Positions 23,620 to 46,022 of a stretch of 64,000 bases of DNA are shown piece after piece (the first letter of the stretch is position 1; every line of letters starts with the position of its first letter). A model generated the notes under the pieces. The model was not told the DNA's origin, did no database searches, and worked only from the letters and a program-made list of their open reading frames with translations. The stretch comes from an uncultured Bacteroidota bacterium (lineage in GTDB: Bacteria; Bacteroidota; Bacteroidia; Flavobacteriales; Flavobacteriaceae): contig CACJHI010000004.1 of assembly GCA_902593165.1 (NCBI GenBank), positions 1 to 64,000 of the forward strand, read 5' to 3'. The position numbers and the translations under genes are program-made.

Positions 23620-23675
23620 CTATTTTTAATTATTTAAAATTAAGGGTTCTTGTTTTGATACTTGTATTTAAAGTA

Positions 23676-25049: not shown

Positions 25050-25580
25050 TTATACAACATCTGCTTTAATTTTTTTAAAAGCAATTGTAATTTGAGCTTC
25101 AACTGTTTTTACTGAAATATTTAATAAAGTTGCAATTTCATGATTTGTTAGCCCTTCGGTTTTACTTAATTTAAAAATCTCTTTACACTTTTTAGGTAGT
25201 TTATTTATTGATCTATCAATTAATTTAATTAATCTATCAAAATCAGATTCAGACGATTCGCTAATAATTTGATTTAAATATTTAACATATTCATCATGGA
25301 TTTTCAATAGTGATTTATTTTTATGGTAGGAGTTAATAAACTGATTGTATACAGACCTATATAAAAAACCATCTATAGAATAATTAGGGTCTAATTTTTT
25401 TCTAAATTCATATGTCTTTATAAATACTTCTTGAACAATATCTTTTGCCATTGAGTAGTCGCCGGATAAACTTATAGCATATGCAAAAAGTCTTTGATGA
25501 TATTTATCAACTAAGTATGAAAAAGCATCTTCATCAGCTTTTTTAAGTAATTGAACTAAATTTTTAGTGTTTATTTTCAA
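25050..25580 (-). CDS. ECF-type RNA polymerase sigma factor (FecI/SusR-associated type; TTG start)
   Basis: DYSMAKDIVQEVFIKTYEFRKK sigma2 region; LPKKCKEIFKLSKTEGLTNHEIATLLNISVKTVEAQI sigma4 HTH. Confidence 0.92.
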   Translation of the reverse strand: MKINTKNLVQLLKKADEDAFSYLVDKYHQRLFAYAISLSGDYSMAKDIVQEVFIKTYEFRKKLDPNYSIDGFLYRSVYNQFINSYHKNKSLLKIHDEYVKYLNQIISESSESDFDRLIKLIDRSINKLPKKCKEIFKLSKTEGLTNHEIATLLNISVKTVEAQITIAFKKIKADVV

Positions 25581-26822: not shown

Positions 26823-29800
26823 ATGAATAACAATCAAAATAGAAATAGTATATCTTTTATTGATAGACTAAGGAACTCTGTTTTCATTATTCTCACATTG
26901 ATTTCAACCAATATAATTTATTCTTCTGCTCAAGATATTACCTTGAAGATGAATAATTCAACCTTGGTTCAAGTCATAGATGAAATTGAAGCAATTTCAG
27001 AATATAAATTTATTTATTCTTTAAGTGCTTACGATTTTAATAAAGTTGTATCTGTCGATGTAACCGAGGAGAATATTGATAATTTATTAGAAATAATTTT
27101 TAATAATGAAATCAATTATGAAATCGTAGATGATAAAATAATTCTTAAAGAAAAGGATTTATCAAATAATACAACTGTAGATATAATTCAAGCTACTGTA
27201 ACAGGAAGAATAACAGACTCAAATGGAATCCCTCTTCCGGGAGCATCTATTATTGAATCAGGAACTTCTAATGGAACTACATCTGATTTTGATGGTAATT
27301 TTTCATTGGATATTTCAGATGAAGATGTTATTCTAGAAATTTCATATATAGGTTTTACATCACAGACAATATCTGTAAGTAATTCAGATAATATTCAAGT
27401 TTCTCTTGTTGCATCTAGATCTGCTCTAGATGAAATTGTCTTAACAGGATATGGTTCAACTCTTAAAAGAGAGTTGGTGTCTTCGATATCACAAGTATCA
27501 GGTGATGAACTGACAAACCAACCTGCATCCAATGTCTCTAATATACTTCAAGGTAAAGCAGCAGGTGTAAGTGTTATAAGCAATAATGGAGAACCTGGTT
27601 CGAGAGCTACAATATCAATTAGAGGTATTAGTTCAATTAGCGGAAATAATGGTCCTCTTTATGTAATTGATGATGTAATTGTTGGGACAGATTTTGATCT
27701 TAATAATATTAATGTAAATGATATTCAATCAATTGAAATTTTAAAAGATGCTAGTTCACTTGCTATTTACGGTACAAGAGGAGCAGCTGGAGTTATATTA
27801 ATACAAACAAAAAGTGGACTTTCAACACCAGAAGGGAGTGTTGAAGTTAGTTTGAACCATTATACTTCATTTGACGAAGTTAAAGCTATGCCTGAACTAG
27901 GAGATGTTGCTCTTTGGAAAGAATATTGGAGTGAAGGTCTTAGTTTAATTCCTGGTGAAGACGGATATGGTGCAAATGATCCTAATTTTGTATTTCCATA
28001 TGACGACAGAAGAGATACAGATTGGAACAGTGCTATTTTACGTGATGGACAAATAAATAACACAGATCTAAATATTTCTGGTAATTCAGAGAAAACTAAT
28101 TATTTCGTCTCTATAAGTAGATTTGATCAAAAAGGAGTAGTTAAAGGTTCGGGTCTTTTAAGAAATGGACTTAGACTTAATTTAGATACAAAGGTAAATG
28201 ATAAGCTTAGGACTGGTATAAGATTCAGTTTAGTGGATAGAAAGCAAGAAAATCAAAAGTTAAACTGGTCAAATGTTTATTATCAGACAATTCCTTATTG
28301 GCAAATCTATGAAGATGATGGTAAAACGTATACTGGAATTAACCCTATAAGTGGAATTCCACAAAGAAATCCAGTTGCAGATGTTACAGATAGAATAGAC
28401 CATAGTTTTATTACAAATCTTAACAGTAATGCATATATTGAGTATGACTTAATTCCTGGTCTTACACTAAAAAGTTCACTTGGAATTAATATGGGTTGGA
28501 ATAAAAACAATTACTATCTCCCTACATACATTCCTCCAAGAAGTGTCGCAAATTCAGGTGGAATTGCCAGAGTTAGACACAATCAAAACAGGAATTATCT
28601 TTTTGAAAATACAGCAACCTATTCATTTGAGGATGGTGACCATTCTCTGAAAATTCTTGCCGGATATACTAGACAAAAAACAACTTCTACTATGACTATG
28701 GCAACAGGTGAAGGATATCCTAATGATGTACTTACATTTAATAATTTATCTCTTGGTGCAGATCCTGAGTCTAATTTAATTGGATCTAATTATGGACAGA
28801 GAACATATACATCAATCCTTAGTAGGATTAATTATGGTTATATGGATAGATACTTTCTTACTCTAGTTGCAAGGCGAGACGGATCCTCAGTTTTTGAAAC
28901 AGGAAACAAGTATGCTACTTTCCCATCAATAGGTGCAGCGTGGATAGTTAGTGAAGAAGACTTTATGCAGAACCAAGATGTAATAAGTAATCTTAAATTA
29001 AGAGCAAGTTATGGAATTGTTGGTGAGCAAGGAGTGCCTCCATACAACTCATTTGCTAGATATAGCGATTTTCCAATGTTTTTAAATGATGGAAGATTAA
29101 ACACTGTACTTCTTAGCTCTATTCCTAGTCAAGGACTGGAATGGGAAAAAACTTATCAGTCGGATGTTGGTTTAGAAATAGGATTTGCAAACAATAGATA
29201 TAGTCTTGAGTTTGATTACTATGAAAAAAGAACTGAAGATCTTCTTTTGGAAAAACCTTTACCATATACAGCAGGTAATACAAGACTTGAGAATATTGGA
29301 GAAATTGAGAATAAAGGATTTGAATTATCTATATCATCAGTTAATATAGAAAAAGAAAATTTTGTGTGGTCAACTTCACTTTCATTATCTCAAAATAAAA
29401 GTGAATTAATTTCTCTTGGTGATGGTCAAGATTATATTGCTCTTGATGATGTTGTTGCTTCAGGTAATGGTACTCCAATTAGGCTTGTGCCTGGTTATCC
29501 AATCCCTAGTTTTTGGGGTGCAAATAATCTTGGGACATACAAAACAAGAAATGATATTGATACTGATGGAAGATTTGGTAGATCATTTCTTGGTGGACCA
29601 AGACTTGAGGACCAAAATGGTGATGGAACATGGAATGATTTAGATTATGTTTATCAGGGAAGTCCAGAACCAGATCTGTTTGGTGGTATAAGAAATGTTT
29701 TTTCTTACAAAAAATGGACTCTTGATACTTTTGCTCATTTCTCAATTGGAAATACAATGTTTAATGGTTCTGTTGCAGAAAGTTATTATGCAAGAGGAGC

Positions 29801-30155
29801 ATATTTAAACCTTCTACCGGAGCTAAAAGATAGATGGACGGAAGAAAATTATATGTCTGACATACCTAGAGCAGGTACAGCTTTCGGTACATATGTTACA
29901 ACTAATGAAACTTCTTTTCAAGATGCATCATTCTTTAGATTAAAAAATGTTACACTAACATATGATTTAGATAACCCTCCATTTGTGAGAGATGCATCAA
30001 TCTATGTAAGTGCACAAAATCTACTTTTAATAAGTGATTATAAATGGGGTGACCCTGAAGTAAGTCAGTATGGAAATCAATTAAACAGAGGTGTTTCAGA
30101 TTCATCATATCCTTACTCTTCAAGTGTATCCTTAGGATTAAATATTAAATTTTAA
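26823..30155 (+). CDS. SusC/RagA-type TonB-dependent outer membrane transporter with N-terminal STN domain
   Basis: STN DITLKMNNSTLVQVIDEIEAISEYKFIYS; CarboxypepD-like VTGRITDSNGIPLPGASI; plug GKAAGVSVISNNGEPGSRATISIRGISS; IEILKDASSLAIYGTRGAAGVILIQTK. Confidence 0.96.
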   Translation: MNNNQNRNSISFIDRLRNSVFIILTLISTNIIYSSAQDITLKMNNSTLVQVIDEIEAISEYKFIYSLSAYDFNKVVSVDVTEENIDNLLEIIFNNEINYEIVDDKIILKEKDLSNNTTVDIIQATVTGRITDSNGIPLPGASIIESGTSNGTTSDFDGNFSLDISDEDVILEISYIGFTSQTISVSNSDNIQVSLVASRSALDEIVLTGYGSTLKRELVSSISQVSGDELTNQPASNVSNILQGKAAGVSVISNNGEPGSRATISIRGISSISGNNGPLYVIDDVIVGTDFDLNNINVNDIQSIEILKDASSLAIYGTRGAAGVILIQTKSGLSTPEGSVEVSLNHYTSFDEVKAMPELGDVALWKEYWSEGLSLIPGEDGYGANDPNFVFPYDDRRDTDWNSAILRDGQINNTDLNISGNSEKTNYFVSISRFDQKGVVKGSGLLRNGLRLNLDTKVNDKLRTGIRFSLVDRKQENQKLNWSNVYYQTIPYWQIYEDDGKTYTGINPISGIPQRNPVADVTDRIDHSFITNLNSNAYIEYDLIPGLTLKSSLGINMGWNKNNYYLPTYIPPRSVANSGGIARVRHNQNRNYLFENTATYSFEDGDHSLKILAGYTRQKTTSTMTMATGEGYPNDVLTFNNLSLGADPESNLIGSNYGQRTYTSILSRINYGYMDRYFLTLVARRDGSSVFETGNKYATFPSIGAAWIVSEEDFMQNQDVISNLKLRASYGIVGEQGVPPYNSFARYSDFPMFLNDGRLNTVLLSSIPSQGLEWEKTYQSDVGLEIGFANNRYSLEFDYYEKRTEDLLLEKPLPYTAGNTRLENIGEIENKGFELSISSVNIEKENFVWSTSLSLSQNKSELISLGDGQDYIALDDVVASGNGTPIRLVPGYPIPSFWGANNLGTYKTRNDIDTDGRFGRSFLGGPRLEDQNGDGTWNDLDYVYQGSPEPDLFGGIRNVFSYKKWTLDTFAHFSIGNTMFNGSVAESYYARGAYLNLLPELKDRWTEENYMSDIPRAGTAFGTYVTTNETSFQDASFFRLKNVTLTYDLDNPPFVRDASIYVSAQNLLLISDYKWGDPEVSQYGNQLNRGVSDSSYPYSSSVSLGLNIKF

Positions 30156-30172
30156 AATATAAAACCAAAAAA

Positions 30173-31750
30173 ATGAAAACAAGAAAATTTAACTTTTTAC
30201 ACATTTTACTCATGATGGGTTTAATCGTATTACCTATTTCATGTGATGACGAAGCATTTCTTGAAGAAGATCTAAGAGATGCACTGTCTCCAGCAACATT
30301 TTATAATAATGATGCTGAAGCAGCATTAGCTGTTAACGGTGTCATGATGGGTTTGATTTCTAGCAATGGTCATAGAAACAGACAATATGCTTCAATGTCT
30401 CATTATGGATCTGATGAAGGAGGTCCTTCAAGAGGAAATGTAGCTGGTACATATCACAACTATCTTTATGAAGAAGGAGTTGGAGGTTATGGTAATACAT
30501 GGCGTGTATGGTACCAAACCATTAGAGATGCTAACTCAGCTCTGGAAAATATTGAAGGAAATGATAAACTCTCTAGAACATTTAGAGATCAAGCAATTGG
30601 TCAACTTTTAACTATTAGAGCCTTAATCTATTGGGAATTAACAGTTATGTGGGGTGATGTTCCTTATTTCAGAGATTTACCTAGTTCAGAGGTGCTTGGA
30701 AGTATTGAAAGAACCCCAGTTGCTACGATTAGAACAGATCTTAAGGCTGATCTTGAAAGAGCTGCTTCTCTACTTCCTAGTGAATGGAGTGGTGTTGATT
30801 ATGGTAGATTTACAAAATGGGCTGCTTTAGGGTTTAAGACAAAAATTCATCTATACGATAGAGAATGGGCTGAAACGGTTGCAACTGCCAACCAAATTAT
30901 TAACGGTTCTCCGCATGCGCTGATGGATAATTTTGAGGATGTTTATGGAAGATCAAGAATGATGATCGGTGATCCACAAAATAAAGAAATGATAGCTTGG
31001 ATTGATTTTGCTGGTTTATCTGGTGAAGGAGTTATGTCTGCAGCAGATTATGCAAGAAATTCAGGAGGATTTGTTGAGGAAATGACACCTAGAGGAAGAG
31101 ATGAGCCTAAAAACAAGGGAGAAAAAGCAGCATTTAATGCTGCATTAGCTGCTAATGGAGATGAGTTCAATGGTTTTGGTGCTTATAGTCCTTTTCCAGA
31201 TGCCGCTAAAAGATCAAGATGGCAAGATGGTGATCTAAGGTATGATGTAACAATTATAACTCATTATGAAGGGTTTGAATTGAAACATAAATATTTCAAA
31301 AAACTTTGGCAACCTAATCTTGAAGCTTCATATAGAGGTAATAGACATGAAAACTTTATATTACTTAGACTTGCGGATGTATATTTAATGGCTGCAGAGG
31401 CTCAAAATGAACTTGGAGGTCCTGGTGAAGCTTATCAATACATAAATAAAGTTAGAGAAAGAGCATTTGAGCCAGATAACCCTCTTAGTGGTCTTAATCA
31501 AACAAGTTTTAGAGAAGCTCTTCAAGAAGAAAGGTTTTTTGAACTTATGGGAGAGCATCAAAGAAAAAGAGATTTAATTAGATGGGGATTATTAGCTGAG
31601 AGAATTCAAAATACTACAGTTTTTAAACAGCATAATGCTCGTAAAGTAAACTATGCTCCTCGTCATCATTTATTACCAATTCCTTTAGAGGAAATTCAGA
31701 ATAATCCTAATTTGTTGAATACAGATCCAACAAATAATGGTTACAGATAG
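30173..31750 (+). CDS. SusD/RagB-type glycan-binding lipoprotein
   Basis: Lipobox LPISC followed by acidic DDEAFLEED; IRALIYWELTVMWGDVPYF; NFILLRLADVYLMAAEAQNEL; ERFFELMGEHQRKRDLIRWG. Confidence 0.96.
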   Translation: MKTRKFNFLHILLMMGLIVLPISCDDEAFLEEDLRDALSPATFYNNDAEAALAVNGVMMGLISSNGHRNRQYASMSHYGSDEGGPSRGNVAGTYHNYLYEEGVGGYGNTWRVWYQTIRDANSALENIEGNDKLSRTFRDQAIGQLLTIRALIYWELTVMWGDVPYFRDLPSSEVLGSIERTPVATIRTDLKADLERAASLLPSEWSGVDYGRFTKWAALGFKTKIHLYDREWAETVATANQIINGSPHALMDNFEDVYGRSRMMIGDPQNKEMIAWIDFAGLSGEGVMSAADYARNSGGFVEEMTPRGRDEPKNKGEKAAFNAALAANGDEFNGFGAYSPFPDAAKRSRWQDGDLRYDVTIITHYEGFELKHKYFKKLWQPNLEASYRGNRHENFILLRLADVYLMAAEAQNELGGPGEAYQYINKVRERAFEPDNPLSGLNQTSFREALQEERFFELMGEHQRKRDLIRWGLLAERIQNTTVFKQHNARKVNYAPRHHLLPIPLEEIQNNPNLLNTDPTNNGYR

Positions 31751-31822: not shown

Positions 31823-33346
31823 ATGAAAATAAAACATATATTATTTACAATCTTTTTCTTATTCATTTTTTCTTCATGTGAAACAAAAAAAGATGATTTA
31901 AGACCAAATTTTGTATTCATTTTAGCTGATGATTTAGGATATGGGGAGTTGGGTATTCTTGGACAAAAATTCATTGAAACACCTAATATTGATCAATTAG
32001 CCAAAGAAGGAATGATTCTTAAAGACCATTACACAGGTTCCCCTGTTTGTGCTCCTGCACGAGCAGTACTTTTAACTGGCCTTCATTCTGGAAATAATCC
32101 AATCAGAGGGAATGATGAATGGAGAGAAAGAGGAGATGTATGGAGTTTTCAAGCTATGTTTGAAAATTCAGATCTAGAGGGTCAACGACCGATGCCAGAT
32201 TCAATAATAACTGTTGCAGAATTTTTAAAGTCTAATGGGTATAAAACTGGTATGGTTGGAAAGTGGGGTCTAGGTGCTCCCAATACTAATAGTATTCCTA
32301 ATAATAAAGGATTTGACTTTTTTTATGGATATAATTGTCAAAGACAAGCTCACACTCTTTATCCTAGTCATCTATGGAGAAATAAAGAAAGACACATCCT
32401 AGATAATCAGATAGTTAATAAAGGTCAACTTAAAGAAGGATTGGATCCATATGATACTAATAGTTACAATCTATATAATCAAAATGATTATGCCCCAACT
32501 TTGATGCATAGTGAAGCTTTGAGTTTTATAGAGTCCAATAAAGACAATAATTTTTTTCTCTATTATGCTTCTCCAATTCCTCATTTACCTCTTCAAGCTC
32601 CAAAGAAGTGGGTAGATTACTACCGCGAAAAATTTGGTAAAGAAGAACCTTATGTAGGGAATTCTTATTATCCAAATCAATATCCTAAAGCTACATACGC
32701 AGCAATGATTTCTTATTTAGATGAACAAGTTGGAGAAATAGTTGCAAAGCTTAAAGAAATTGGGAAATATGATAATACATTTATTATTTTTTCAAGTGAC
32801 AATGGTCCAACACATGTAGAACACGTTGATATTAATTTCTTTAATAGTGCAGGACCTTTTGTAAACTCCAAAAACACTGTCAAAGGCAGTGTTAATGAAG
32901 GAGGGATAAGGGTTCCTACAATTGCAACTTGGCCTAAAAAAATTAAACCCGGAACTTATTCAGAACATCCAAGTACCTTCTACGACTATTATGCAACAGT
33001 ATCTGATATCATTAATAAAGAACTTCCTTATTCAATAGACGGTATAAGTTATTACCCTACACTTATAGATAAAAAACAAGATAAACACGATTATCTATAT
33101 TGGGAGTTCCCTGCTTATGGTGGCCAACAGGCAATTAGAATTAATAACTGGAAAGGGATTAAAAAGAATTTATTTAAGGGCCCTTCAAAACTGCAACTTT
33201 ATAACTTAGATGAAGATCCAAAAGAATTAAATGATATAGCATTTAAGTACCCTGAAATTGTATCTAGAATGGAAGATTTTATGAAAGAGGCACATACAAA
33301 ACCAAAAATGGATAAATTTAAAATACCAGTTTTAGATAATAAATAA
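31823..33346 (+). CDS. Sulfatase 2 (arylsulfatase-like), putative lipoprotein
   Basis: Lipobox IFSSC; NFVFILADDLGYGELG; GSPVCAPARAVLLTG. Confidence 0.93.
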   Translation: MKIKHILFTIFFLFIFSSCETKKDDLRPNFVFILADDLGYGELGILGQKFIETPNIDQLAKEGMILKDHYTGSPVCAPARAVLLTGLHSGNNPIRGNDEWRERGDVWSFQAMFENSDLEGQRPMPDSIITVAEFLKSNGYKTGMVGKWGLGAPNTNSIPNNKGFDFFYGYNCQRQAHTLYPSHLWRNKERHILDNQIVNKGQLKEGLDPYDTNSYNLYNQNDYAPTLMHSEALSFIESNKDNNFFLYYASPIPHLPLQAPKKWVDYYREKFGKEEPYVGNSYYPNQYPKATYAAMISYLDEQVGEIVAKLKEIGKYDNTFIIFSSDNGPTHVEHVDINFFNSAGPFVNSKNTVKGSVNEGGIRVPTIATWPKKIKPGTYSEHPSTFYDYYATVSDIINKELPYSIDGISYYPTLIDKKQDKHDYLYWEFPAYGGQQAIRINNWKGIKKNLFKGPSKLQLYNLDEDPKELNDIAFKYPEIVSRMEDFMKEAHTKPKMDKFKIPVLDNK

Positions 33347-33351
33347 AAAAA

Positions 33352-34845
33352 ATGAAAAAAAAAATAACTTCAATATTAATACTGTTTCTATTTATAATAT
33401 CATGTAATTCATCTATAGAAAGAGAAGTACAAAGACCAAATTTTATAATCTTCATAGCTGATGATATAAGCTGGGACGATATTGGTGCTTATGGAAATGA
33501 ATTTGTTAGCACACCAAATATTGATAACCTTGCTAAAGAAGGATTAATTTTTAATAATATGTATTTAACTACTAGCTCATGTAGTCCTAGTAGAAACTCT
33601 ATAATGACGGGGAGGTATCCACACAATCATGGTGCACCTGAGCTTCATACTCAACCTCCAATGGGAATGAAAACATTTGCTGAAGAGTTAAACTCCTCTG
33701 GTTATTATACTGTATCTTCAGGAAAGTGGCATATTGGTGATTATGCCAGACCTGGATTTGATGTTATTCATGAGGGTATAGATTTGGTAGGCTTTGGTGG
33801 AGAGGATCAATGGGTTAATATTTTAACAGACAGACCAAAAGATAAACCATTTTTTATCTGGGCTGCAGCTCATGATCCACATAGGGATTGGGCTGAAAAT
33901 GATTTTTCAGGCACACACAAATTAGATGACATTATCGTACCTGATTATTTAATTGATGACTTACAGACAAGACAGGATCTAGCTCACTATTATGATGAGA
34001 TTAAAAGATTTGATTACTTTATTGGAGAAGTAATTTCAAAATTAAAAGACCAAAATGTATATGATAATACAATTCTAATGATTATGTCTGATAATGGAAG
34101 ACCATTTCCTCATAGTAAGACAAGGTTGAACGATCAAGGGGTTAAAACACCATTTATATTTGTATATAATGATGAAAAGATATTAGGTAAGACAGAAAGC
34201 TTAGTAAGTGTAATCGATATTGCTCCTACAATTCTAGATTATGCTGGTATTGATATTAAAGAAAATTTTCAAGGAAAGAGTTTTAGAAAACTTCTTAAAA
34301 ATCCTGATGAAAAGTTTAGGAATTATGTCTTTGCTGAACATAATTGGCATGACTATGAATCCCATCAAAGAATGGTTAAAAATGAAGATTATATGTTAAT
34401 CCAGAATAATAGAAATGAATTTCCTCAGGCAGGTCCATTAGATGCAATAAACAGCTCTACATATGCAAGTCTATTGGAAAAAAATAAGCTTGGAGAAATA
34501 ACAGAAGTTCAAGGTGAAATATTTGATAGTCCTAGATTAGAAGAGGAGTTTTATGTTTTGAAAAATGATTTATTTCAAAGAAAGAATTTAATAGATGATG
34601 ATAAATTAAATGAAGAAATAAATAATTTGAGAGTTATATTAAATAGATGGAAAAATGAAACTGGTGATTCACAGCCAGAAGAAATTACAAAAGATTGGTA
34701 CTTGAGAACTCCTGGACCAATTGAAACAAGAAATAATCTAGGTAAATCTATAGATCTTGTAAAAACTAAAAATCATGGCATTAGAGGTGAGTTTCCAGGA
34801 TCATCCAATAATGCTACAGAAAATAATAATAAAGGTCCTTTTTAA
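33352..34845 (+). CDS. Sulfatase 3 (heparan N-sulfatase-like), putative lipoprotein
   Basis: Lipobox FIISC; NFIIFIADDISWDDIGAYG; SSCSPSRNSIMTGRYPHNHGA. Confidence 0.92.
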   Translation: MKKKITSILILFLFIISCNSSIEREVQRPNFIIFIADDISWDDIGAYGNEFVSTPNIDNLAKEGLIFNNMYLTTSSCSPSRNSIMTGRYPHNHGAPELHTQPPMGMKTFAEELNSSGYYTVSSGKWHIGDYARPGFDVIHEGIDLVGFGGEDQWVNILTDRPKDKPFFIWAAAHDPHRDWAENDFSGTHKLDDIIVPDYLIDDLQTRQDLAHYYDEIKRFDYFIGEVISKLKDQNVYDNTILMIMSDNGRPFPHSKTRLNDQGVKTPFIFVYNDEKILGKTESLVSVIDIAPTILDYAGIDIKENFQGKSFRKLLKNPDEKFRNYVFAEHNWHDYESHQRMVKNEDYMLIQNNRNEFPQAGPLDAINSSTYASLLEKNKLGEITEVQGEIFDSPRLEEEFYVLKNDLFQRKNLIDDDKLNEEINNLRVILNRWKNETGDSQPEEITKDWYLRTPGPIETRNNLGKSIDLVKTKNHGIRGEFPGSSNNATENNNKGPF

Positions 34846-34847
34846 TC

Positions 34848-36353
34848 ATGAATAAAATCAAAGTATTTATTATTTCAATTCTACTAATAAGTTGTGCTGA
34901 TAATTCGCTAGAAATATCTAAAGACACTAAATTAAATGTTTTGTTTATAGTTGCAGATGACTTAAATACTCGAATTGGTGCTTATGGAGATAATCAAGCA
35001 ATAACTCCAAATATTGATAAACTAGCTGAGTCAGGCGTTACATTTATGAATGCTCACAATCAATATCCTCAATGTGCTCAATCAAGAGCTTCATTTATGA
35101 CTGGCCTTTATCCAGACCAAACAAAAATAAAAAAACTACTAATTTATTTAAGAGAGACTATACCTGATGTAATAACTATTGGGGAAAGATTTAGACAGGA
35201 AAATTATCACTCAGTAAGAATAGGTAAAATATTTCATTATCATAATCCTGGTCAAATTGGAACATCAGGTCATGATGATAATAGAACATGGGATCAAACA
35301 GTTAATCCCTATGGAAGAGATAAATTAGAAGAGTACAAAGTTAAATCTTTAATTCCAGGAAAGTTTGGTGGAACTTTAAGTTGGCTTGAAGCAGATGGAA
35401 TTGATGAAGAACAAACTGATGGTATAGGAGCAACTGAAACTATAGAGTTTCTTGATAAATTTGCCAAAAGTGGCGAAAACTTCTTTCTAGCTTATGGTCT
35501 ATATAGACCTCATACTCCTTACGTTGCTCCAAAGAAATATTTTGATCTTTTTGATAAAAATGAAATGATAATCCCTAAAGTTTCAGAAGATTATTATAAA
35601 ACGATTCCTTTGCCTGCTGCTGCTACTGTTACCGAGAAACCTGAAGAAAGAAACCTTGAATATGAATTAGCTCAAACAATTAAAAAGGCATATTACGCTA
35701 CAAATTCTTTTGTTGATGCTCAAATAGGTAGAGTATTAGATAAACTTAAAGAGACAGGACTTGATAAAAATACTATAGTAGTTTTTACTTCTGATCATGG
35801 GTATCATTTAGGTGAATATGGACATTGGCAAAAAAGAACTCTATTTGAGCATTCAACTCGTGTGCCCTTGATTGTTTCTGGTCCAGGAATAAACAAAAAT
35901 GAAAAAATCATGAAAGCGCCTATAGAGCTTATAGATATGTATCCTACAATAATGGATCTTGTAGGTATGGAAACTCCAAAATTTGTTCAAGGAAAGAGTT
36001 TTGCACCTGTTTTAAAAGACTCATCAAAAGTATCTAGAGAAAGTGCACTTACAGAATTAAATATAGATAGAATACCCGTTCAAGGATATTCTATAAAAAC
36101 AAATAGATACAGGCTAACTCAGTGGGGTGAAAATGGATCAATGGGTTATGAACTTTATGATCACAATGTAGATAGTGAAGAAATGAATAATCTAGCAGAA
36201 AATGCTGATTATAAAGATGTTAAAGACTCATTAATAAATGTTATTGCTGAACGTATAGCTAATGCTAGGACTAAACCTGAAGGGTTAGGGAATCAATTTG
36301 AGCCTAGGTATAGGAAAGGATGGGATTATATTAAGATTCGCCCAAAAAAATAA
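34848..36353 (+). CDS. Sulfatase 4 (iduronate-2-sulfatase-like) with CAQSR in place of CxPxR, putative lipoprotein
   Basis: Lipobox LLISC; NVLFIVADDLNTRIGAYGDNQAITPNIDKLA; YPQCAQSRASFMTGLYPDQT; DHGYHLGEYGHWQKRTLFEHSTRVPLIV. Confidence 0.92.
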   Translation: MNKIKVFIISILLISCADNSLEISKDTKLNVLFIVADDLNTRIGAYGDNQAITPNIDKLAESGVTFMNAHNQYPQCAQSRASFMTGLYPDQTKIKKLLIYLRETIPDVITIGERFRQENYHSVRIGKIFHYHNPGQIGTSGHDDNRTWDQTVNPYGRDKLEEYKVKSLIPGKFGGTLSWLEADGIDEEQTDGIGATETIEFLDKFAKSGENFFLAYGLYRPHTPYVAPKKYFDLFDKNEMIIPKVSEDYYKTIPLPAAATVTEKPEERNLEYELAQTIKKAYYATNSFVDAQIGRVLDKLKETGLDKNTIVVFTSDHGYHLGEYGHWQKRTLFEHSTRVPLIVSGPGINKNEKIMKAPIELIDMYPTIMDLVGMETPKFVQGKSFAPVLKDSSKVSRESALTELNIDRIPVQGYSIKTNRYRLTQWGENGSMGYELYDHNVDSEEMNNLAENADYKDVKDSLINVIAERIANARTKPEGLGNQFEPRYRKGWDYIKIRPKK

Positions 36354-36356
36354 TTT

Positions 36357-37805
36357 ATGAAAAATTTTTTTTTAATATTTTCTTTATTCCTTATGACAGT
36401 CTCTTGTAATAATTTAAATAACGAAAGTAGACCAAATTTTATAGTAATTTTTGTTGATGATTTAGGATATGGAGATCTAGGTTCATATGGACATCCAACA
36501 ATTAAAACTCCCACTCTAGATAAATTGGCATATGAAGGGCAAAAATGGACTCAATTTTATTCTGCTTCAAGTGTATGTACTCCTAGTAGGGCTGCGTTGT
36601 TAACTGGAAGGCTTCCAATTAGAAACGGAATGATTGGATCTAAGACTAGAGTTTTTTTCCCTGATTCACAGTATGGAATTCCTGATTCTGAAATTACAAT
36701 TGCTGAGAAACTTAAAGAAAATGGTTATAAAAATGCTATTATTGGAAAATGGCATTTAGGTCATAAAAAAGAATATCTTCCTCTTCAGCATGGATTTGAT
36801 TATTATTTCGGTATTCCATATTCGAATGATATGGATCCAATTAATGGAGTTACCTGCTGTCCTGGACCAAGATATTGGCAACAATATGAAAAAAAGAGAC
36901 CAGATTCATCAAATTATAATGTTCCTTTAATTGAAAACAATAATATTATAGAGAGACCAGCAGATCAAACAACAATTACTAAAAGATATTCAGATAAAGC
37001 AGTTGAATTTATTAGAGATAATAAAAAAAATAATTTTTTCTTGTATTTAGCACACAACCTTCCTCATACTCCTCTTTATGCCTCAGATGAATTTACTGGT
37101 AAAAGTAAAAGAGGTCTATATGGAGATGTTGTAGAAGAAATTGACCATGGTATTGGAAGAATTATTGATGAGTTAGAAAGAAATAATCTTGACAGAAACA
37201 CAATTGTAATTTTCACATCTGATAATGGACCCTGGCTTCCATTTGAATCTCAATCTGGTTCAGCAGGACTTCTAAGAGAAGGAAAAGGAAGTACTTGGGA
37301 GGGAGGACATAGAGTTCCAGGGATTTTTTGGGGTGGAGGTATTAAATCATCTGTAATAGATGATCTAGGCTCTACAATGGATATCTTTCCAACAATTCTA
37401 GAAATGTCAAATTCAGGACAAGTTGATGATAGAATTATAGATGGGTTAAGTATTAAAAACACTCTTTTAAATCTTGAACCATCTAATAGAGAAAAAGTTA
37501 TTTTCTATAGAGAGAGAGAGGTATACGCTCTAAGATATCGTCAATTTAAAGCTCATTTTATTACAAAAGGAGTCTATAATTATCCTTACCCTGATATAAA
37601 AACATATATGGAAAAACCTTTGCTTTATAATTTAGATATAGACCCTTCCGAAAAATATAATATAGCTGATGAAAATCCTGAAATATTAAAAAAAATATAT
37701 GAGGTGCTTGAATCTCATCAAAACAACCTTAATGCAACAGAAGATTTACTTCAGTATAGGGATAATGATGGAAATATTGATGGAATAAATGATTCTTTTG
37801 ATTAA
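36357..37805 (+). CDS. Sulfatase 5 (arylsulfatase A-like), putative lipoprotein
   Basis: Lipobox MTVSC; NFIVIFVDDLGYGDLGSYG; SSVCTPSRAALLTGR; GKWHLGH. Confidence 0.93.
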   Translation: MKNFFLIFSLFLMTVSCNNLNNESRPNFIVIFVDDLGYGDLGSYGHPTIKTPTLDKLAYEGQKWTQFYSASSVCTPSRAALLTGRLPIRNGMIGSKTRVFFPDSQYGIPDSEITIAEKLKENGYKNAIIGKWHLGHKKEYLPLQHGFDYYFGIPYSNDMDPINGVTCCPGPRYWQQYEKKRPDSSNYNVPLIENNNIIERPADQTTITKRYSDKAVEFIRDNKKNNFFLYLAHNLPHTPLYASDEFTGKSKRGLYGDVVEEIDHGIGRIIDELERNNLDRNTIVIFTSDNGPWLPFESQSGSAGLLREGKGSTWEGGHRVPGIFWGGGIKSSVIDDLGSTMDIFPTILEMSNSGQVDDRIIDGLSIKNTLLNLEPSNREKVIFYREREVYALRYRQFKAHFITKGVYNYPYPDIKTYMEKPLLYNLDIDPSEKYNIADENPEILKKIYEVLESHQNNLNATEDLLQYRDNDGNIDGINDSFD

Positions 37806-37814
37806 TACTCAACT

Positions 37815-39251
37815 ATGAAGATGAGCAGACTTTTTATTGTTTTCTTTAACCTTATTCTTATTGGGTGCTCTCAAAAAGAAATGATTCAAAAACCTAATAT
37901 TATTTTGATTATGACAGATGATCAAGGTTGGGGTCAAACAGGTTATTACAATCATCCTCTTTTAAAAACCCCTAACTTGGATGAGATGGCAAATAATGGA
38001 TTACGTTTTGATAGATTCTACGCTGGTGCACCAGTTTGTTCTCCAACTAGAGCATCAGTATTAACAGGAAGAAGTAATGATAGAACTGGTGTGTATGATC
38101 ATGGTTATCGTCTTAGACTTCAAGAAAAAACAATTTCGCAAGCATTAAAAAATAATGGATATATAACTGCACATTTTGGTAAATGGCATTTAAATGGATT
38201 AAGAGGACCAGGTGCTCCTATTTTAATAGATGATAAATATGGCCCTCAAAATTTTGGATTTGACCATTGGTTATCGGTTACTAATTTTTTTGATATAAAT
38301 CCATTAATGAGTGAAAATGGAGTTTTTATTGACTTTAATGGAAATTCCTCAGAGATTATATTTAATGAGGCTCTATCCTTTATAAAAGAGAAAAAAAACA
38401 AAGAAATGCCCTTTTTTATTGTTATTTGGGATGGATCACCACATTCTCCATTTATTGCAGATGATAAGGATAATATTGATTTTAACAATTTAGATGAAAG
38501 AAGTAAAAATCATTATGGAGAATTAGTTGCATTTGATAATAGTTTAGGAGATTTTAGAAAAGGTCTTCAGGAAATAGGTATATCCAACAATACCCTTTTA
38601 TGGTTTAATAGCGATAATGGAGGTCTTGGTAAAAAACAGAATATATCACCCTCGACTGTAGGAGGTTTAAAGGGTCAAAAAGGAGATATTTGGGAGGGCG
38701 GTATTAGAGTTCCTAGTATAATTGAATGGCCATCAGTAATTAAAAGTAGAATTAGCACCTATCCATCTTCAACAATGGATATTTTTCCCACAATAGTTGA
38801 TATTTTAAACTTACCTGACTCTACTATATTAATGCCATTTGATGGGGAAAGTCTTTTTCCTTTATTTAATTCAAAGATTGAGAAAAGAAAAAATAAAATT
38901 CCATTCCGTTATCTTGATAAGGGTGCATTAATAGATAATAATTTTAAACTAGTAGTAACAAGCATTAAAAAAAATAATTTTGAATTATATGACTTACTAA
39001 ATGATCCTAAAGAATCTTTAAATATAAGTTCATCTTACCCGATTGTCTTTCAAGAAATGAAAGATGAATTTATAAAGTGGAATAGAACAGTAAATGAAAG
39101 TATTAATGGGAATGATTATAATGAAGAATTTATAAATGAGGATGGAAGAAAATGGTGGCCTTCTGATGAAAGATATGAGCCATTTCTAAACGATCTAATT
39201 AAACGTCCAGAATATACTGAGTATATTAAAAGAAGAGCTAACTTAAATTAA
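37815..39251 (+). CDS. Sulfatase 6, putative lipoprotein
   Basis: Lipobox LILIGC; NIILIMTDDQGWGQTGYYNH; GAPVCSPTRASVLTGR; GKWHLNG. Confidence 0.93.
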   Translation: MKMSRLFIVFFNLILIGCSQKEMIQKPNIILIMTDDQGWGQTGYYNHPLLKTPNLDEMANNGLRFDRFYAGAPVCSPTRASVLTGRSNDRTGVYDHGYRLRLQEKTISQALKNNGYITAHFGKWHLNGLRGPGAPILIDDKYGPQNFGFDHWLSVTNFFDINPLMSENGVFIDFNGNSSEIIFNEALSFIKEKKNKEMPFFIVIWDGSPHSPFIADDKDNIDFNNLDERSKNHYGELVAFDNSLGDFRKGLQEIGISNNTLLWFNSDNGGLGKKQNISPSTVGGLKGQKGDIWEGGIRVPSIIEWPSVIKSRISTYPSSTMDIFPTIVDILNLPDSTILMPFDGESLFPLFNSKIEKRKNKIPFRYLDKGALIDNNFKLVVTSIKKNNFELYDLLNDPKESLNISSSYPIVFQEMKDEFIKWNRTVNESINGNDYNEEFINEDGRKWWPSDERYEPFLNDLIKRPEYTEYIKRRANLN

Positions 39252-39258
39252 CCATAGA

Positions 39259-40662
39259 ATGAAAAGGATATTCTTAAAATTATTTATTTTAATTTTTTCA
39301 TTAACATCAATTGGTTGTAGTGTTGAGAGTAATACAAAACCTAATATTATATGGATAGTAGCTGAAGATCAATCGCAATATTTTTTTCCATACTATGGCG
39401 ATAATACTATTGAGTTACCAAACATTAATAAACTTTTAGAAAATGGAACGGTATATGAGGGTATGAGCTCTCCTTATCCTGTATGTGCACCAGCTAGAAG
39501 CTCAATTATAACAGGAATGTATCCTAACTCAATTGGAACAGGTCATCAAAGAGCTTATCATTACAATAGAGAGGTGAGGCCTGAGAGCGAATATTTATTA
39601 GAATTTCAATATTATTCCTCCAAACTAGCTGAGCAGATTAAACCATTTACTCAAATCTTAAGGGAAAACGGATATTATACAACTAATAATTCAAAACAAG
39701 ATTATAATTTTAAATTAACAGATGAAGCTTGGGATGAATCTAGTAGAGAAGCTAGTTGGGAAAACAGAAATAATAACCAGCCTTTCTTTTCAGTTTTTAA
39801 CTTTGGAGTTACTCATGAATCTCAAATCTGGATTAGGGATAAACAAGAGCTTAAAGTAAATCCAGATAGTATTATTGTTCCTCCAGTTTTTCCAAATGAT
39901 TCAATTGTTAGACACTCGTTGGCTGTAAATTATTCTAATATAATTGAAATGGATAAACAAATGGGGAAGATTATTGATAAGCTCATTGAACAAGATCTAT
40001 ATGACGATAGCTATATCTTTTTTTACAGTGATCATGGAGGTCCTTTTCCAAGACATAAAAGAGCAATATATGAAACTGGATTAAAAGTTCCATTGATAAT
40101 AAAGTTTCCATATTCCAAAAAAGCTAAAGAAGATAGAAATTATGACTTATTAAGTTTCATTGACTTTGCGCCAACAATCTTATCTATTGCTGGAGTTGAA
40201 ATTCCAGAAACATTCCAGGGCAATGCATTTTTAGGTTCAAAAGAATTAAAAAATAAAAGAAAGTATTCATTTAGTGCTAGTGATAGGTTTGATGAGATTA
40301 CTGAGAGAAAACGAGCTGTAAAAACAAAAAAATATAAATATGTTAGGAATTATGATACTTATCAACCCCATGCAATAGACAATTATTACAGAACTCAAAT
40401 GAATTTAATGAGACATCTAACTAACTTAAATAAATTAAACCTTCTCTCACCAGAACAAAAACTTTGGTTTAAGTCCCCTAAAAGCAATGAGGAATTTTAT
40501 GATCTAGAAAATGATCCATTTGAACTAAATAATTTAATTACAGATAAAGCTTTTTCAAGTAAAATTGAAGAATTGAGAGCACAACTAGATAATTGGATGA
40601 TTCAGATTAATGATAATGTAGATCTTTCTGAAAAGGAATTAATAGAGATTATAACTAGGTAA
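39259..40662 (+). CDS. Sulfatase 7 (sulfoglucosamine sulfohydrolase-like), putative lipoprotein
   Basis: Lipobox TSIGC; NIIWIVAEDQSQYFFPYYGD; PVCAPARSSIITGMYPNSIGTGHQRAY. Confidence 0.91.
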   Translation: MKRIFLKLFILIFSLTSIGCSVESNTKPNIIWIVAEDQSQYFFPYYGDNTIELPNINKLLENGTVYEGMSSPYPVCAPARSSIITGMYPNSIGTGHQRAYHYNREVRPESEYLLEFQYYSSKLAEQIKPFTQILRENGYYTTNNSKQDYNFKLTDEAWDESSREASWENRNNNQPFFSVFNFGVTHESQIWIRDKQELKVNPDSIIVPPVFPNDSIVRHSLAVNYSNIIEMDKQMGKIIDKLIEQDLYDDSYIFFYSDHGGPFPRHKRAIYETGLKVPLIIKFPYSKKAKEDRNYDLLSFIDFAPTILSIAGVEIPETFQGNAFLGSKELKNKRKYSFSASDRFDEITERKRAVKTKKYKYVRNYDTYQPHAIDNYYRTQMNLMRHLTNLNKLNLLSPEQKLWFKSPKSNEEFYDLENDPFELNNLITDKAFSSKIEELRAQLDNWMIQINDNVDLSEKELIEIITR

Positions 40663-40672
40663 TATTCTTTAT

Positions 40673-42154
40673 ATGAAAAAAACAGCATTAATTCTTTTTT
40701 TAACCCTAAATATATCTTGTGAATCAATTGACAATAAGAATCCAAATATTATCTTATTTTTTGTAGATGATTTAGGATGGACAGATTTATCTTTTATGGG
40801 TTCAAAGTATTATGAAACTCCAAATATTGATAATCTTTCAAAAAGTGGAATGACATTTTATAATGGATATGCTTCAGCAGCAAATTGTACACCTAGTAGG
40901 GCTACAATGTTTACTGGTAAATATTCAACTAGTCATGGTATATATACAGTTGCTGATAATAAAGATCTAGTTGGCTCAGAAAGAGGAAATGACAAAACTC
41001 GAAAATTGATACCCATTAAAAATAAAAGAAATCTTGATTTAGAATTTTTTTTAATTCCTGAAATGTTAAAAGATAAAGGGTACTTAAATGCTCATTTTGG
41101 TAAATGGCATCTTGGTAATGAGGGATTTCATCCTGAAGATCAAGGTTTTGATTTTAATTTTGGTGGCAATCAAACTGGAGGTCCTAAAGGAGGGTATTTT
41201 TCTCCATATAAAAATCCAAATATTTCAGATGGACCAAAAGGGGAGTATCTCACTGACAGAATTGGAGATGAAGTTGTAAATTTTATAGATAATAATCAAA
41301 ATGAAACCTTTTTTGCATATGTGCCATTTTATTCTGTCCATACTCCGATTCAATCAAAAAAAGACCTTCAAAAAAAATATTTATTAAAAGATGGAAATGA
41401 AAATCATAATCGAGCAGATTATGCAGGTATGATTCAGTCAGTTGATGAAAATATTGGAAAAATTATAAATGAAATTGAGAAACTAGGTTTATCCGAAAAT
41501 ACTCTTTTTATTTTCACCTCTGATAACGGTGGTATTAGAGCTATATCTAGCCAATCACCACTTAGAGCTGGAAAAGGATCATACTATGAAGGAGGTATAA
41601 AAGTACCCTTAATTTTTTCATGGAGAGGGAAAATAAAAGAGGGAAGTAAATCTTATGAAAGAGTAAGCAATCTTGATTTTTTTCCTACAATTCAAAAGAT
41701 TGTAGGCTATAAAAACAACGATCTAAAACTAGATGGAGTAGATTTAAATCCAATTTTTGAAGGTAGAAATATTGAAAAAAGAGCTTTGTTTTACCATTTC
41801 CCTATTTACCTTCAGGCATATAATGTTCAAGAGGATAATGGAACAGATCCTTTGTTTAGAACAAGACCTGGTTCGGTTATAATTAAAGACAATTGGAAGC
41901 TGCATCACTATTTTGAAAATAATAAAAAAGAACTTTACAATATTGAAAATGATATATCAGAATCATATGATTTAAGTAAAGTAAATGTCCAAAAGACAAA
42001 AGAACTTTTTAACATCTTAAATTTATGGAGAGAGACAAATAATGCTCCAATACCGTTTGAAAAAAACATTAAGTATGATCAAAAGTTTGTTGATAGTATT
42101 AATTTACTTATAATTGATGGAAAGCTATCAGGTAGAATAAACACTAATTGGTAA
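40673..42154 (+). CDS. Sulfatase 8, putative lipoprotein
   Basis: Lipobox-like LNISC; NIILFFVDDLGWTDLSFMGSKYYETPNID; AANCTPSRATMFTGK; GKWHLG. Confidence 0.92.
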   Translation: MKKTALILFLTLNISCESIDNKNPNIILFFVDDLGWTDLSFMGSKYYETPNIDNLSKSGMTFYNGYASAANCTPSRATMFTGKYSTSHGIYTVADNKDLVGSERGNDKTRKLIPIKNKRNLDLEFFLIPEMLKDKGYLNAHFGKWHLGNEGFHPEDQGFDFNFGGNQTGGPKGGYFSPYKNPNISDGPKGEYLTDRIGDEVVNFIDNNQNETFFAYVPFYSVHTPIQSKKDLQKKYLLKDGNENHNRADYAGMIQSVDENIGKIINEIEKLGLSENTLFIFTSDNGGIRAISSQSPLRAGKGSYYEGGIKVPLIFSWRGKIKEGSKSYERVSNLDFFPTIQKIVGYKNNDLKLDGVDLNPIFEGRNIEKRALFYHFPIYLQAYNVQEDNGTDPLFRTRPGSVIIKDNWKLHHYFENNKKELYNIENDISESYDLSKVNVQKTKELFNILNLWRETNNAPIPFEKNIKYDQKFVDSINLLIIDGKLSGRINTNW

Positions 42155-42166
42155 TTAAATATTTTA

Positions 42167-43741
42167 ATGATGAACTTTAATTATGCTAAATCTTTTATTA
42201 TTTCAATTCTCATATTTATTTTAGGATGTGAGTCAAATAAGAATAATTCTAATAATGACCCCAATATTATAATAATTTACACAGATGATTTAGGTTATGG
42301 TGATGTAAGTGCATATCAAAAAGGTACATTAAAAACACCTAATATTGATAAGCTAGCTAATGAAGGGATTAGATTTAATTTTGGATACGCTTCATCTGCA
42401 ACTTGTAGCCCTAGTAGATATGCTCTATTAACTGGTAAATATCCATGGAGAAAAGATGGTTTAAGAGTTATAACTGGTGGGTCTTTAGTAATTGATACTA
42501 CTGAAATGACTATACCTAAACTATTAAAAAGAAAAAATTATCGTACAGGTATTGTAGGAAAGTGGCATCTTGGTTTAGGTTCTGGAGATGGAGTCGCTGG
42601 ATCTGGTATAATTGATTATAATTCTACAATCTCTCCTGGTCCTAATGAAGTAGGTTTTGATTATTCACATATAATGGCTGATACTCAAGATCGTGTTCCA
42701 ACAGTATATATTGAAAATGGAGATGTTGTTAATCTTGACCCTAATGACCCTATAGAAGTAAATTTTTTCCATCAAAAAAAACATGATGATTATGGTTTGC
42801 CAACTGGATTGAAAAATCCTGAGCTTACAACAATGAAATGGCATCATGGTCATAATGGTTCAATTATAAATGGAGTCCCAAGAATTGGATATATGAAAGG
42901 TGGTAATAATGCTCTTTGGAGTGATATTGATATGGCAGATCACTTCCTGCAAAAGGCTAAAGAATATATTAAACGAAATAAAAAAAACCCATTCTTTCTA
43001 TTTTATACCCTTCAACAACCACATGTTCCGAGAACACCTCACCCAAGATTTGAGGGTCTATCAGGAATGGGGCCTAGAGGAGATGTGATTATAGAAGCAG
43101 ATTGGGCAATTGGAGAATTATATAAGACTTTAGAGTCAGAGAATTTATTAGATAATACATTAATAATTTTCTCAAGTGACAATGGACCTGTATTAAATGA
43201 TGGATATTATGACGATGCTGTAGAAAAACTAGGAGATCATACTCCTAAAGGTGGATTAAGAGGTGGAAAATATAGTCTCTTTGAAGCTGGCACAAGAGTT
43301 CCGTTTATTTCATATTGGAAAGGAAAAATAAAGCCGGGAATATCAAATGAAATGATATCACAAATTGATCTTCTAAATTCAATTTCTAAATTAGTCGGAT
43401 TAGATTATAGATCAAAAGATGGAATAGACTTTTTAGATTTGATTTTAAATAATAAAGGTAAGGGTAGGGAAGAGTTGATTCTTGAGGCTTCTACAAGAAC
43501 TGCATACAGAAAGGGAGATTGGGTAATGATTCCACCCTATAAGGGTCAATCAATTGCAAAAAATGTTAATATTGAATTAGGGAACTCATTGGAATTTAAA
43601 TTATATAACTTAAAGGATGATCCTTCACAAAAAAATGATCTTTCAAAGATAGAGGATGAGAAGTTAAAGGAAATGATTAAAGGTTTTGTAAAAATTAGAG
43701 GTAAAGAATTTACTAATATTAAAAACCTAGTTTTAGAGTAA
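42167..43741 (+). CDS. Sulfatase 9 (arylsulfatase-like), putative lipoprotein
   Basis: Lipobox FILGC; NIIIIYTDDLGYGDVSAY; SATCSPSRYALLTGKYPWR; GKWHLGLGSGDG. Confidence 0.93.
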   Translation: MMNFNYAKSFIISILIFILGCESNKNNSNNDPNIIIIYTDDLGYGDVSAYQKGTLKTPNIDKLANEGIRFNFGYASSATCSPSRYALLTGKYPWRKDGLRVITGGSLVIDTTEMTIPKLLKRKNYRTGIVGKWHLGLGSGDGVAGSGIIDYNSTISPGPNEVGFDYSHIMADTQDRVPTVYIENGDVVNLDPNDPIEVNFFHQKKHDDYGLPTGLKNPELTTMKWHHGHNGSIINGVPRIGYMKGGNNALWSDIDMADHFLQKAKEYIKRNKKNPFFLFYTLQQPHVPRTPHPRFEGLSGMGPRGDVIIEADWAIGELYKTLESENLLDNTLIIFSSDNGPVLNDGYYDDAVEKLGDHTPKGGLRGGKYSLFEAGTRVPFISYWKGKIKPGISNEMISQIDLLNSISKLVGLDYRSKDGIDFLDLILNNKGKGREELILEASTRTAYRKGDWVMIPPYKGQSIAKNVNIELGNSLEFKLYNLKDDPSQKNDLSKIEDEKLKEMIKGFVKIRGKEFTNIKNLVLE

Positions 43742-43825: not shown

Positions 43826-45445
43826 ATGAAATATTATCCCTTAAAATTATTGTGTATTGCCTTTCTTATTTTAGGATGTAATAGTCATACAGAAACCAAT
43901 ACAAAACCGAATATATTATTTATTATGTCTGATGATCACGCTTATCAGGCAATAAGCGCATATGATGATAGGTTAATTCAAACTCCAAACATCGACAGAA
44001 TTGCAGAAGAAGGAATGTTGTTTACTAATGCCTCGGTTACAAATTCAATATGTGCACCTTCAAGAGCAGTTATATTAACTGGTAAACACAGTCATATTAA
44101 TGGAAAAATAGATAACATTGCAAAATTTGACGATTCTCAAATGACCTTTCCTCAATTATTTAAAAATAATGGATATCAAACAGCTATGTTTGGAAAACTT
44201 CACTTTGGAAATAATCCAAAAGGTATAGATGATTTTCTAATTCTTCCCGGTCAGGGAGACTATATAAATCCTAGATTCTTAGGAAAAGAGAAGGACACAA
44301 TTATTACTGGATATGTAACAGATGTAATCACTGATTTAACATTAGACTGGTTTAAAAATAAAAGAGATGATGATAAGCCTTTCTTGACATTTTATCTTCA
44401 CAAAGCTCCTCATAGGGCATGGTGGCCAAGTCCAGAAAAGTTTGCTGAATTTTATAACAAAAAGTTTCCTGAACCAGAAACTCTTTATGATGACTACTCT
44501 AATAGGGGTACTGCTGCAAAAACTGCTGAGATGAATCTACTTACTCATATGCAATACATGCAAGACAGTAAAGTTCGTCCCTCAGTATTTGAAAAAATGG
44601 AAAATGTAGAGCCAAAAATTGTTTATGCTAGAGGTGATGGAACCTTTTTTGAGCCAAGCTCTAATTCTTTTAATAACCGTTATGGAAGAGCTAATGAGGA
44701 ACAAAAGAAAAAATATGACGTTACTCTAGATAAGATTAGTAAAGATTTTGAAGCTAATTGGCCAAACATGACCAATAAGGAAAAAATGCAATGGAAGTTT
44801 CAACGTTACATGCAAGACTATTTGGCAACCATCTCATCTGTAGATGACAACGTAGGAAGAGTTTTAGACTATCTGGAAGAAACAGGGCTAGATAAAAATA
44901 CTATAGTCGTTTATACTTCAGATCAAGGATTTTACCTGGGTGAACATGGATGGTTTGATAAGAGGTTTATCTATGAAGAGTCTTTCAAAACCCCACTGAT
45001 GATCAAATGGCCTAATCAAATTAAACCTGGAACAACAAATGAGGAAATGGTTCAAAATCTTGACTTTGCCCAAACTTTTTTAGAGGCTGCGATGATTGAA
45101 GCGCCAAAAGATATGCAGGGTGAGAGTCTCATACCATTATTAAAAGGAAATTCAAGTAAATGGAACAGAGAATCAGTTTATTATCATTATTATGAGTATC
45201 CTTCAGTCCATATGGCAAAGAGACACTATGGAATAGTTAACAAAGACTATAAACTCACTCACTTTTATTATGATATTGATGAGTGGGAATTATATGATCG
45301 TAAAAATGATCCTAATGAAATGAATAATGTTTATAATGATCCTAATTATAAGGATGTTGTTAACAATTTAACACAAGAATTAAAAGAACTTAGAATTAAA
45401 TATAAAGACTCGGAGGAATTAGATAAAAGCTTTATATATAATTGA
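43826..45445 (+). CDS. Sulfatase 10 (N-acetylglucosamine-6-sulfatase-like family), putative lipoprotein
   Basis: Lipobox FLILGC; NILFIMSDDHAYQAISAYDDRLIQTPNIDRIAEEG; NSICAPSRAVILTGK; SDQGFYLGEHGWFDKRFIYEES. Confidence 0.93.
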   Translation: MKYYPLKLLCIAFLILGCNSHTETNTKPNILFIMSDDHAYQAISAYDDRLIQTPNIDRIAEEGMLFTNASVTNSICAPSRAVILTGKHSHINGKIDNIAKFDDSQMTFPQLFKNNGYQTAMFGKLHFGNNPKGIDDFLILPGQGDYINPRFLGKEKDTIITGYVTDVITDLTLDWFKNKRDDDKPFLTFYLHKAPHRAWWPSPEKFAEFYNKKFPEPETLYDDYSNRGTAAKTAEMNLLTHMQYMQDSKVRPSVFEKMENVEPKIVYARGDGTFFEPSSNSFNNRYGRANEEQKKKYDVTLDKISKDFEANWPNMTNKEKMQWKFQRYMQDYLATISSVDDNVGRVLDYLEETGLDKNTIVVYTSDQGFYLGEHGWFDKRFIYEESFKTPLMIKWPNQIKPGTTNEEMVQNLDFAQTFLEAAMIEAPKDMQGESLIPLLKGNSSKWNRESVYYHYYEYPSVHMAKRHYGIVNKDYKLTHFYYDIDEWELYDRKNDPNEMNNVYNDPNYKDVVNNLTQELKELRIKYKDSEELDKSFIYN

Positions 45446-45446
45446 T

Positions 45447-46022
45447 ATGAAAAAAATATTCCTAATTTTATTTATTGCTCTAGCTTCATGCTCGTCACCT
45501 AAAGATTATAATATTAAGACTGTTTCAGTTAAGGAATTCAGAGACTTTATTAATGAAACTGGTTATATAACTAGTGCAGAAGTGTATGGTTGGTCCTTTG
45601 TTCAAGAAAATGTTTATGATTATAAGGTTGTCAATGGCGCAAATTGGATGAAACCAGATGGTATCAATGTCTCAATTGATAGTCTACCTGTAACACAAGT
45701 AAGTTACAAAGATGCAATTGAGTACTGTAAATGGGCAAATGTTCAACTTCCAACATACGAGCAGTATTGGGAATTAGTATCTTCAGATGATAGATTAATC
45801 GTGTCAGATAATATGTATCCAATTTCTTCTGTACAATATGTAAATATTGTTGGAAATGTTTGGGATATTACGGAGCCTGGTAACTCAGATCAAGTAAGAC
45901 TAGCAGGTGGATCTCTATTTTGTTCAATAGATACATGTCATGGAACTCAAGAAGATAGAGAGTTATATGTTGATAAAGAAACTGGTAATATTCATATTGG
46001 ATTTAGTATTTTAACAGAATAA
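45447..46022 (+). CDS. Miniature formylglycine-generating enzyme (SUMF1/FGE-sulfatase domain) homolog, 191 aa, putative lipoprotein
   Basis: Lipobox ALASC; [85 protein letters not shown] (C-x4-C active-site pattern). Confidence 0.85.
   Translation: [191 protein letters not shown]

Follow-up and report, generated by a model that had tools for sequence, protein, structure and literature searches.

A miniature lipoprotein relative of formylglycine-generating enzyme closing a row of sulfatase genes in an uncultured flavobacterium

The aerobic formylglycine-generating enzyme (FGE, SUMF1) of human, T. curvata and S. coelicolor has solved chains of roughly 270-320 aa and is recognised by the FGE fold, a copper-binding cysteine pair in the arrangement GGSxxC-x4-C, the NxxGNVW motif, a PVxxVSxxDAxxYxxW(A) core and an association with sulfatases bearing C-x-P-x-R. 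Human SUMF2 (pFGE), a non-catalytic paralogue of FGE, has the same fold and lacks the copper cysteine pair. The radical-SAM sulfatase maturase anSME (TIGR03942) performs the same job on sulfatases and is an unrelated protein. In Bacteroidota the FGE fold is also found in the lipoproteins GldJ, GldK and PorK, which are larger (about 440-590 aa), lack the Cys pair and have a structural role in the T9SS and gliding (PMC12421860). Prokaryotic FGE has been placed in the cytosol and portrayed as closely resembling the human enzyme, the active-site residue Tyr340 has been called highly conserved, and copper allows FGE to function in the reducing cytosol and the oxidising ER alike (PMC4505483). No description of a miniature FGE was found in the open-licence literature searched, mainly by title and abstract.

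The gene considered here lies in a window of 64,000 nucleotides (the whole stretch of DNA that was analysed) from an uncultured member of the Flavobacteriaceae, and encodes a protein of 191 aa, here called mini-FGE. The earlier note on this DNA, made from the sequence alone, had described it as a lipoprotein FGE at the end of a sulfatase operon. Both the 191-aa open reading frame and its place closing a sulfatase gene row are borne out, with nine consecutive Cys-type sulfatase genes directly preceding it. The features of the locus are as follows.

23655..25049, + strand: tenth sulfatase of the region, CTPSR
25050..25580, - strand: ECF sigma factor
25645..26799, + strand: FecR-type anti-sigma factor
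26823..30155, + strand: SusC-like TonB-dependent receptor
30173..31750, + strand: SusD-like glycan-binding protein
31823..33346, + strand: sulfatase, 507 aa, CAPAR, lipoprotein, first of nine consecutive
33352..34845, + strand: sulfatase, 497 aa, CSPSR, lipoprotein
34848..36353, + strand: sulfatase, 501 aa, CAQSR (motif read directly), lipoprotein
36357..37805, + strand: sulfatase, 482 aa, CTPSR, lipoprotein
37815..39251, + strand: sulfatase, 478 aa, CSPTR (motif read directly), lipoprotein
39259..40662, + strand: sulfatase, 467 aa, CAPAR, lipoprotein
40673..42154, + strand: sulfatase, 493 aa, CTPSR, probable lipoprotein (NISC, outside the lipobox pattern used)
42167..43741, + strand: sulfatase, 524 aa, CSPSR, lipoprotein
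43826..45445, + strand: sulfatase, 539 aa, CAPSR, lipoprotein, one base before the mini-FGE
45447..46022, + strand: mini-FGE lipoprotein, 191 aa (ORF, Pfam, phmmer, family alignment, profile alignment)
45447..45491, + strand: lipoprotein signal peptide ending in the lipobox LASC (Cys15), from the sequence
45516..45782, + strand: N-terminal half of the FGE core, residues 24-112, matching positions 42-122 of the PF03781 profile (Pfam)
45843..45866, + strand: NIVGNVWD motif, residues 133-140; NIVGNAWE in human FGE (phmmer, family alignment)
45906..45938, + strand: [11 protein letters not shown], residues 154-164, with the candidate Cu(I) site Cys159/Cys164 (invariant in 39/39 relatives; aligned to the FGE Cys pair)

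The gene row runs from the ECF sigma factor through the FecR anti-sigma factor, SusC and SusD to the nine sulfatases, with the mini-FGE last. Gaps between the sulfatase genes are 2-12 bp with a single exception of 84 bp, and the mini-FGE frame, which is intact and has an ATG start, begins one base past the preceding sulfatase gene. All ten sulfatases of the window are Cys-type, eight by pattern and two (CAQSR and CSPTR) by direct reading, and an N-terminal lipobox is present on all ten as well as on the mini-FGE. None of the genes between 23655 and 46022 could be recognised as a glycoside hydrolase or lyase, and the region 25050-46022 of this 1.2-Mb assembly, a SusC/SusD glycan-utilisation locus with ten lipoprotein sulfatases, is thus a sulfatase-only locus. 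Directly after the mini-FGE, a DUF4442 gene (46023-46481) begins right at its stop codon and may be co-transcribed with it; a nitronate monooxygenase-like gene comes next. A scan for promoters and terminators gave no signal above shuffled background.

The mini-FGE is a relative of FGE/SUMF1. It matches the Pfam family FGE-sulfatase (PF03781) at E 9.2e-15 and 55.4 bits, over a cut-off of 23.3, and its nearest solved sequence by phmmer is human FGE (E 5e-13), so that a resemblance first read by eye holds up in sequence searches. PF03781 is likewise matched by 39/39 aligned relatives, which match no other Pfam family. More specifically, comparison of the mini family with 21 canonical flavobacterial FGEs by hhalign gives a probability of 99.9 and E 8e-35 over 167 aligned columns, and sets residues 154-164 on GGSFLCNDSWC, such that Cys159 and Cys164 fall on the FGE Cys pair; the C-x4-C pair is therefore kept, its placement relative to the FGE copper site being judged by this profile alignment. 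An AlphaFold model (mean pLDDT 78, pTM 0.74) supports an FGE fold, the best 28 Foldseek matches in the PDB all being FGE or human SUMF2 (TM 0.62-0.66, best E 1e-9), with moderate confidence around the Cys pair (pLDDT 62-79 by block). Membership of EgtB or SenA is rejected by scores of 31.7 and 31.2 bits, far under the curated cut-offs of 360 and 420, and a Cys-less FGE-fold lipoprotein of the GldJ/GldK kind is ruled out by the Cys pair and the 191-aa size; genuine GldJ/GldK-type proteins are found separately in other genomes.

The central shortening proposed in the earlier note is real: the stretch from LPT to GNVW is 39 residues vs 75 in canonical FGEs, and that from GNVW to GGS is 14 vs 44. 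The part past GGS is near-constant in length (38 vs 41 residues), and within it the Arg-rich segment after the second Cys has been replaced, again as first described. The deletion is larger than the earlier note said, however, since the FGE domain has also lost its first ~41 positions, which form the 'MVxIPGGxFxMG...HxVxxxFxMDxxEVT' strands. Of a domain of about 250 positions, then, two segments are deleted and only 42-122 of 255 are significantly matched. The position of the active-site residue Tyr340 (human numbering; the last x of C-x4-C) is also altered, being Thr in 37/39 minis and Tyr or Trp in 21/21 canonical FGEs. The human His337 position is Ser in the minis, and in most Flavobacteriales FGEs it is not His either. 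The protein is accordingly classed as a variant of FGE, because descent, fold and copper pair are those of FGE while the full-length domain and Tyr340 are absent, with its function read from genomic context.

The mini-FGE belongs to a real protein family. Across 84,980 species genomes scanned, 44 loci emerged, comprising 42 near-full-length relatives and two fragments, spread over Bacteroidota (Flavobacteriia, Saprospiraceae, Chitinophagales, Sphingobacteriales and others). The family is rare, being present in 5/248 genomes of its own order, where calls scored 270 bits and above and the next class 84 bits and below, and in 4/395 of the phylum. Identity among relatives falls to 46%; 40 columns are nevertheless invariant among the 39 aligned, including both cysteines, and Ser156, Trp139 and NxxGNVW are invariant or nearly so. 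The dN/dS against near relatives is about 0.07-0.18, indicating purifying selection.

The phylogenetic tree places the minis in one clade (support 0.849), whose sister group (support 1.0) consists of four compact Flavobacteriales FGEs of 316-318 aa that carry the Cys pair (L158-L161). Both types are nested inside the Cys-pair FGEs (0.976), apart from GldK and other Cys-less proteins, which establishes common descent with the former. The compact FGEs resemble the mini form in being exported, in carrying 'CHG' after the second Cys in most cases and in having a short segment from YxTxAE to W..P (26 vs 25 residues); they differ in retaining the Tyr and all of the PF03781 domain (L159 matches 3-255 of 255 at 199 bits). 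With their shortened YxTxAE-to-W segment they are a plausible evolutionary intermediate, and the mini-FGE probably derives from such exported enzymes, having lost the N-terminal strands along with the greater part of the central loop region.

The distribution of the family follows that of Cys-type sulfatases. In 26/42 relatives, in addition to the window gene, a Cys-type sulfatase lies within 300 bp of the mini, and the Cys-type motif is found in all 69 sulfatases of the mini loci in which the motif region is present; several of the other minis occur alone. The adjoining sulfatases fall into at least nine groups that are only about 23-40% identical to one another, and because they belong to such unrelated subfamilies, a helper dedicated to one particular sulfatase is rejected. 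Full-length formylglycine sulfatases are encoded in 20/20 distinct searched genomes carrying an intact mini (G005 and G167, whose sulfatase coordinates are identical, are apparently one genome), compared with 46/144 genomes without a mini (Fisher 1.7e-9, uncorrected for kinship and mixing two sampling schemes); in G013, the one genome lacking them, the mini is frameshifted. Among 148 genomes of the order, formylglycine sulfatases occur in 50, and every genome with a canonical FGE (27), a mini (4) or an anSME over cut-off (2) is sulfatase-positive. The phyletic pattern of the mini therefore parallels that of canonical FGE (27/27 with sulfatases), and its association with Cys-type sulfatases is both genomic and phyletic.

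A second maturase in the same cell, which the earlier note held would refute its reading if it accounted for all maturation and the mini-FGE showed no activity or binding, was not found in the window genome (75% complete): the mini-FGE is its only PF03781 protein, and no anSME was found there. Similarly, no other PF03781 protein or anSME was found in the mini genomes G001, G002 and G004, and the second PF03781 protein of G003 lacks the Cys pair. In all, 18/20 intact-mini genomes show no other Cys-pair FGE, the further PF03781 proteins inspected (all except a handful of GldJ/GldK size, 482-579 aa, and one of EgtB size) being GldJ, GldK, EgtB-like or others without the Cys pair. A canonical Cys-pair FGE accompanies the mini only in two Winogradskyella genomes (G010 and G011), and in G010 the sole sulfatase found adjoins the canonical FGE. 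No anSME over the cut-off of 349 bits was present in any mini genome tested, two Tenacibaculum genomes having a radical-SAM protein at about 180 bits. This absence is not in itself proof that the mini is the maturase, because no Cys-pair FGE or anSME was detected either in five mini-less, sulfatase-rich genomes that are complete or nearly so (G020, G033, G083, G093 and G108; L240-L252) and whose sulfatases are Cys-type. Another maturation route may exist in such Flavobacteriales.

The lipobox claimed for the mini-FGE is present (LASC15), and since the mini-FGE and its sulfatases both bear lipoprotein signals, they should share an envelope location. This location does not set the mini-FGE apart as the earlier note had supposed. 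Each of the 21 canonical Flavobacteriales FGEs with a Cys pair that were examined (L046, L047, L135-L161; alignment A3) carries a lipobox or an N-terminal signal or anchor, so that the generalisation of bacterial FGEs as cytosolic fails for this order, in which an exported FGE looks to be the rule. Because copper lets FGE work in reducing and oxidising environments (PMC4505483), an envelope FGE is chemically reasonable.

The reading that fits these observations best, and that is considered probable, is that the mini-FGE works as a formylglycine-generating enzyme, pared to a minimum and anchored in the membrane. Homology, the invariant Cys pair, nesting among Cys-pair FGEs, sulfatase linkage and the phyletic pattern all uphold that part of the original proposal of a reduced exported FGE tied to sulfatases. 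The alternative raised along with it, a catalytically dead chaperone, is made less likely than the note had implied by the invariance of the copper Cys pair, although the loss of Tyr340 speaks in its favour. Worded more fully, this would be a non-catalytic sulfatase-binding helper like SUMF2, holding C-x-P-x-R unfolded or aiding an unknown maturase, with the Cys pair a structural disulfide in the oxidising envelope. The loss of two domain parts besides Tyr340, the coexistence with a canonical FGE in two genomes, the ranking of SUMF2 first among PDB matches to the family profile and the sulfatase-rich relatives without a known maturase, which imply a possible other route, would all suit such a helper. 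However, SUMF2, GldJ and GldK have no Cys pair, while the minis keep it invariant at FGE spacing with GGS in front, and most mini genomes offer no catalytic partner to be helped; a helper is thus judged rather unlikely.

The remaining explanations grade downward from there. An active copper oxidase of the FGE type that works mainly on another envelope CxPxR or Cys protein, with the sulfatase linkage secondary, would account for the approximately 16/42 relatives without a sulfatase within 300 bp and for several host genomes in which the only formylglycine sulfatase lies far from the mini; it is nonetheless improbable given that every intact-mini genome encodes formylglycine sulfatases and that those adjoining minis come from many unrelated subfamilies. 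Conservation of Cys-x4-Cys while other active-site residues changed might instead point to an FGE scaffold turned, in the periplasm, to copper binding or thiol-redox chemistry, serving copper delivery or disulfide exchange and making no formylglycine, yet conservation extends well beyond the pair (GGS, NxxGNVW, the PVTQVS core) and linkage is to sulfatases rather than to copper or redox genes, which leaves this reading very improbable. A decaying, functionless remnant finds some encouragement in the shortening and in two damaged copies. One (L037/L122), from a genome that yielded no formylglycine sulfatase (G013), has a frameshift past the second Cys, which could be a loss of function or an assembly error; the other (G386, L264:9406-10110), in a 99%-complete genome of another family, has an in-frame stop in the LPTYExYW segment, with a Cys-type sulfatase about 5 kb upstream. 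Purifying selection, the invariant columns and the wide spread in Bacteroidota make decay extremely improbable as an account of the family.

As a minimal FGE, the mini-FGE would be exported as a lipoprotein, coordinate a single Cu(I) through Cys159 and Cys164 and use O2 to convert the C-x-P-x-R cysteine of the co-encoded exported sulfatases to formylglycine in the cell envelope. In its most specific form, that of a functional envelope-anchored enzyme of ~170 mature residues which matures about ten exported sulfatases through a rewired active site, with the Cu-Cys pair kept, Tyr340 changed to Thr and the N-terminal strands and central loop dispensed with, the proposal could as easily prove wrong as right.

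The several sulfatase-rich Flavobacteriales without a recognisable maturase raise a separate question. With an exported form of only 191 aa that is linked to exported sulfatases, it becomes possible to test directly at what site and by what means marine Bacteroidota activate the sulfatases that they presumably use on sulfated glycans, as well as which parts of FGE are needed; the mini-FGE could also serve as a smaller enzyme for aldehyde-tag protein labelling. If the most specific form of the proposal is true, the mini-FGE would represent a minimal formylglycine-generating core, and streamlined marine bacteria would activate their sulfatases after export.
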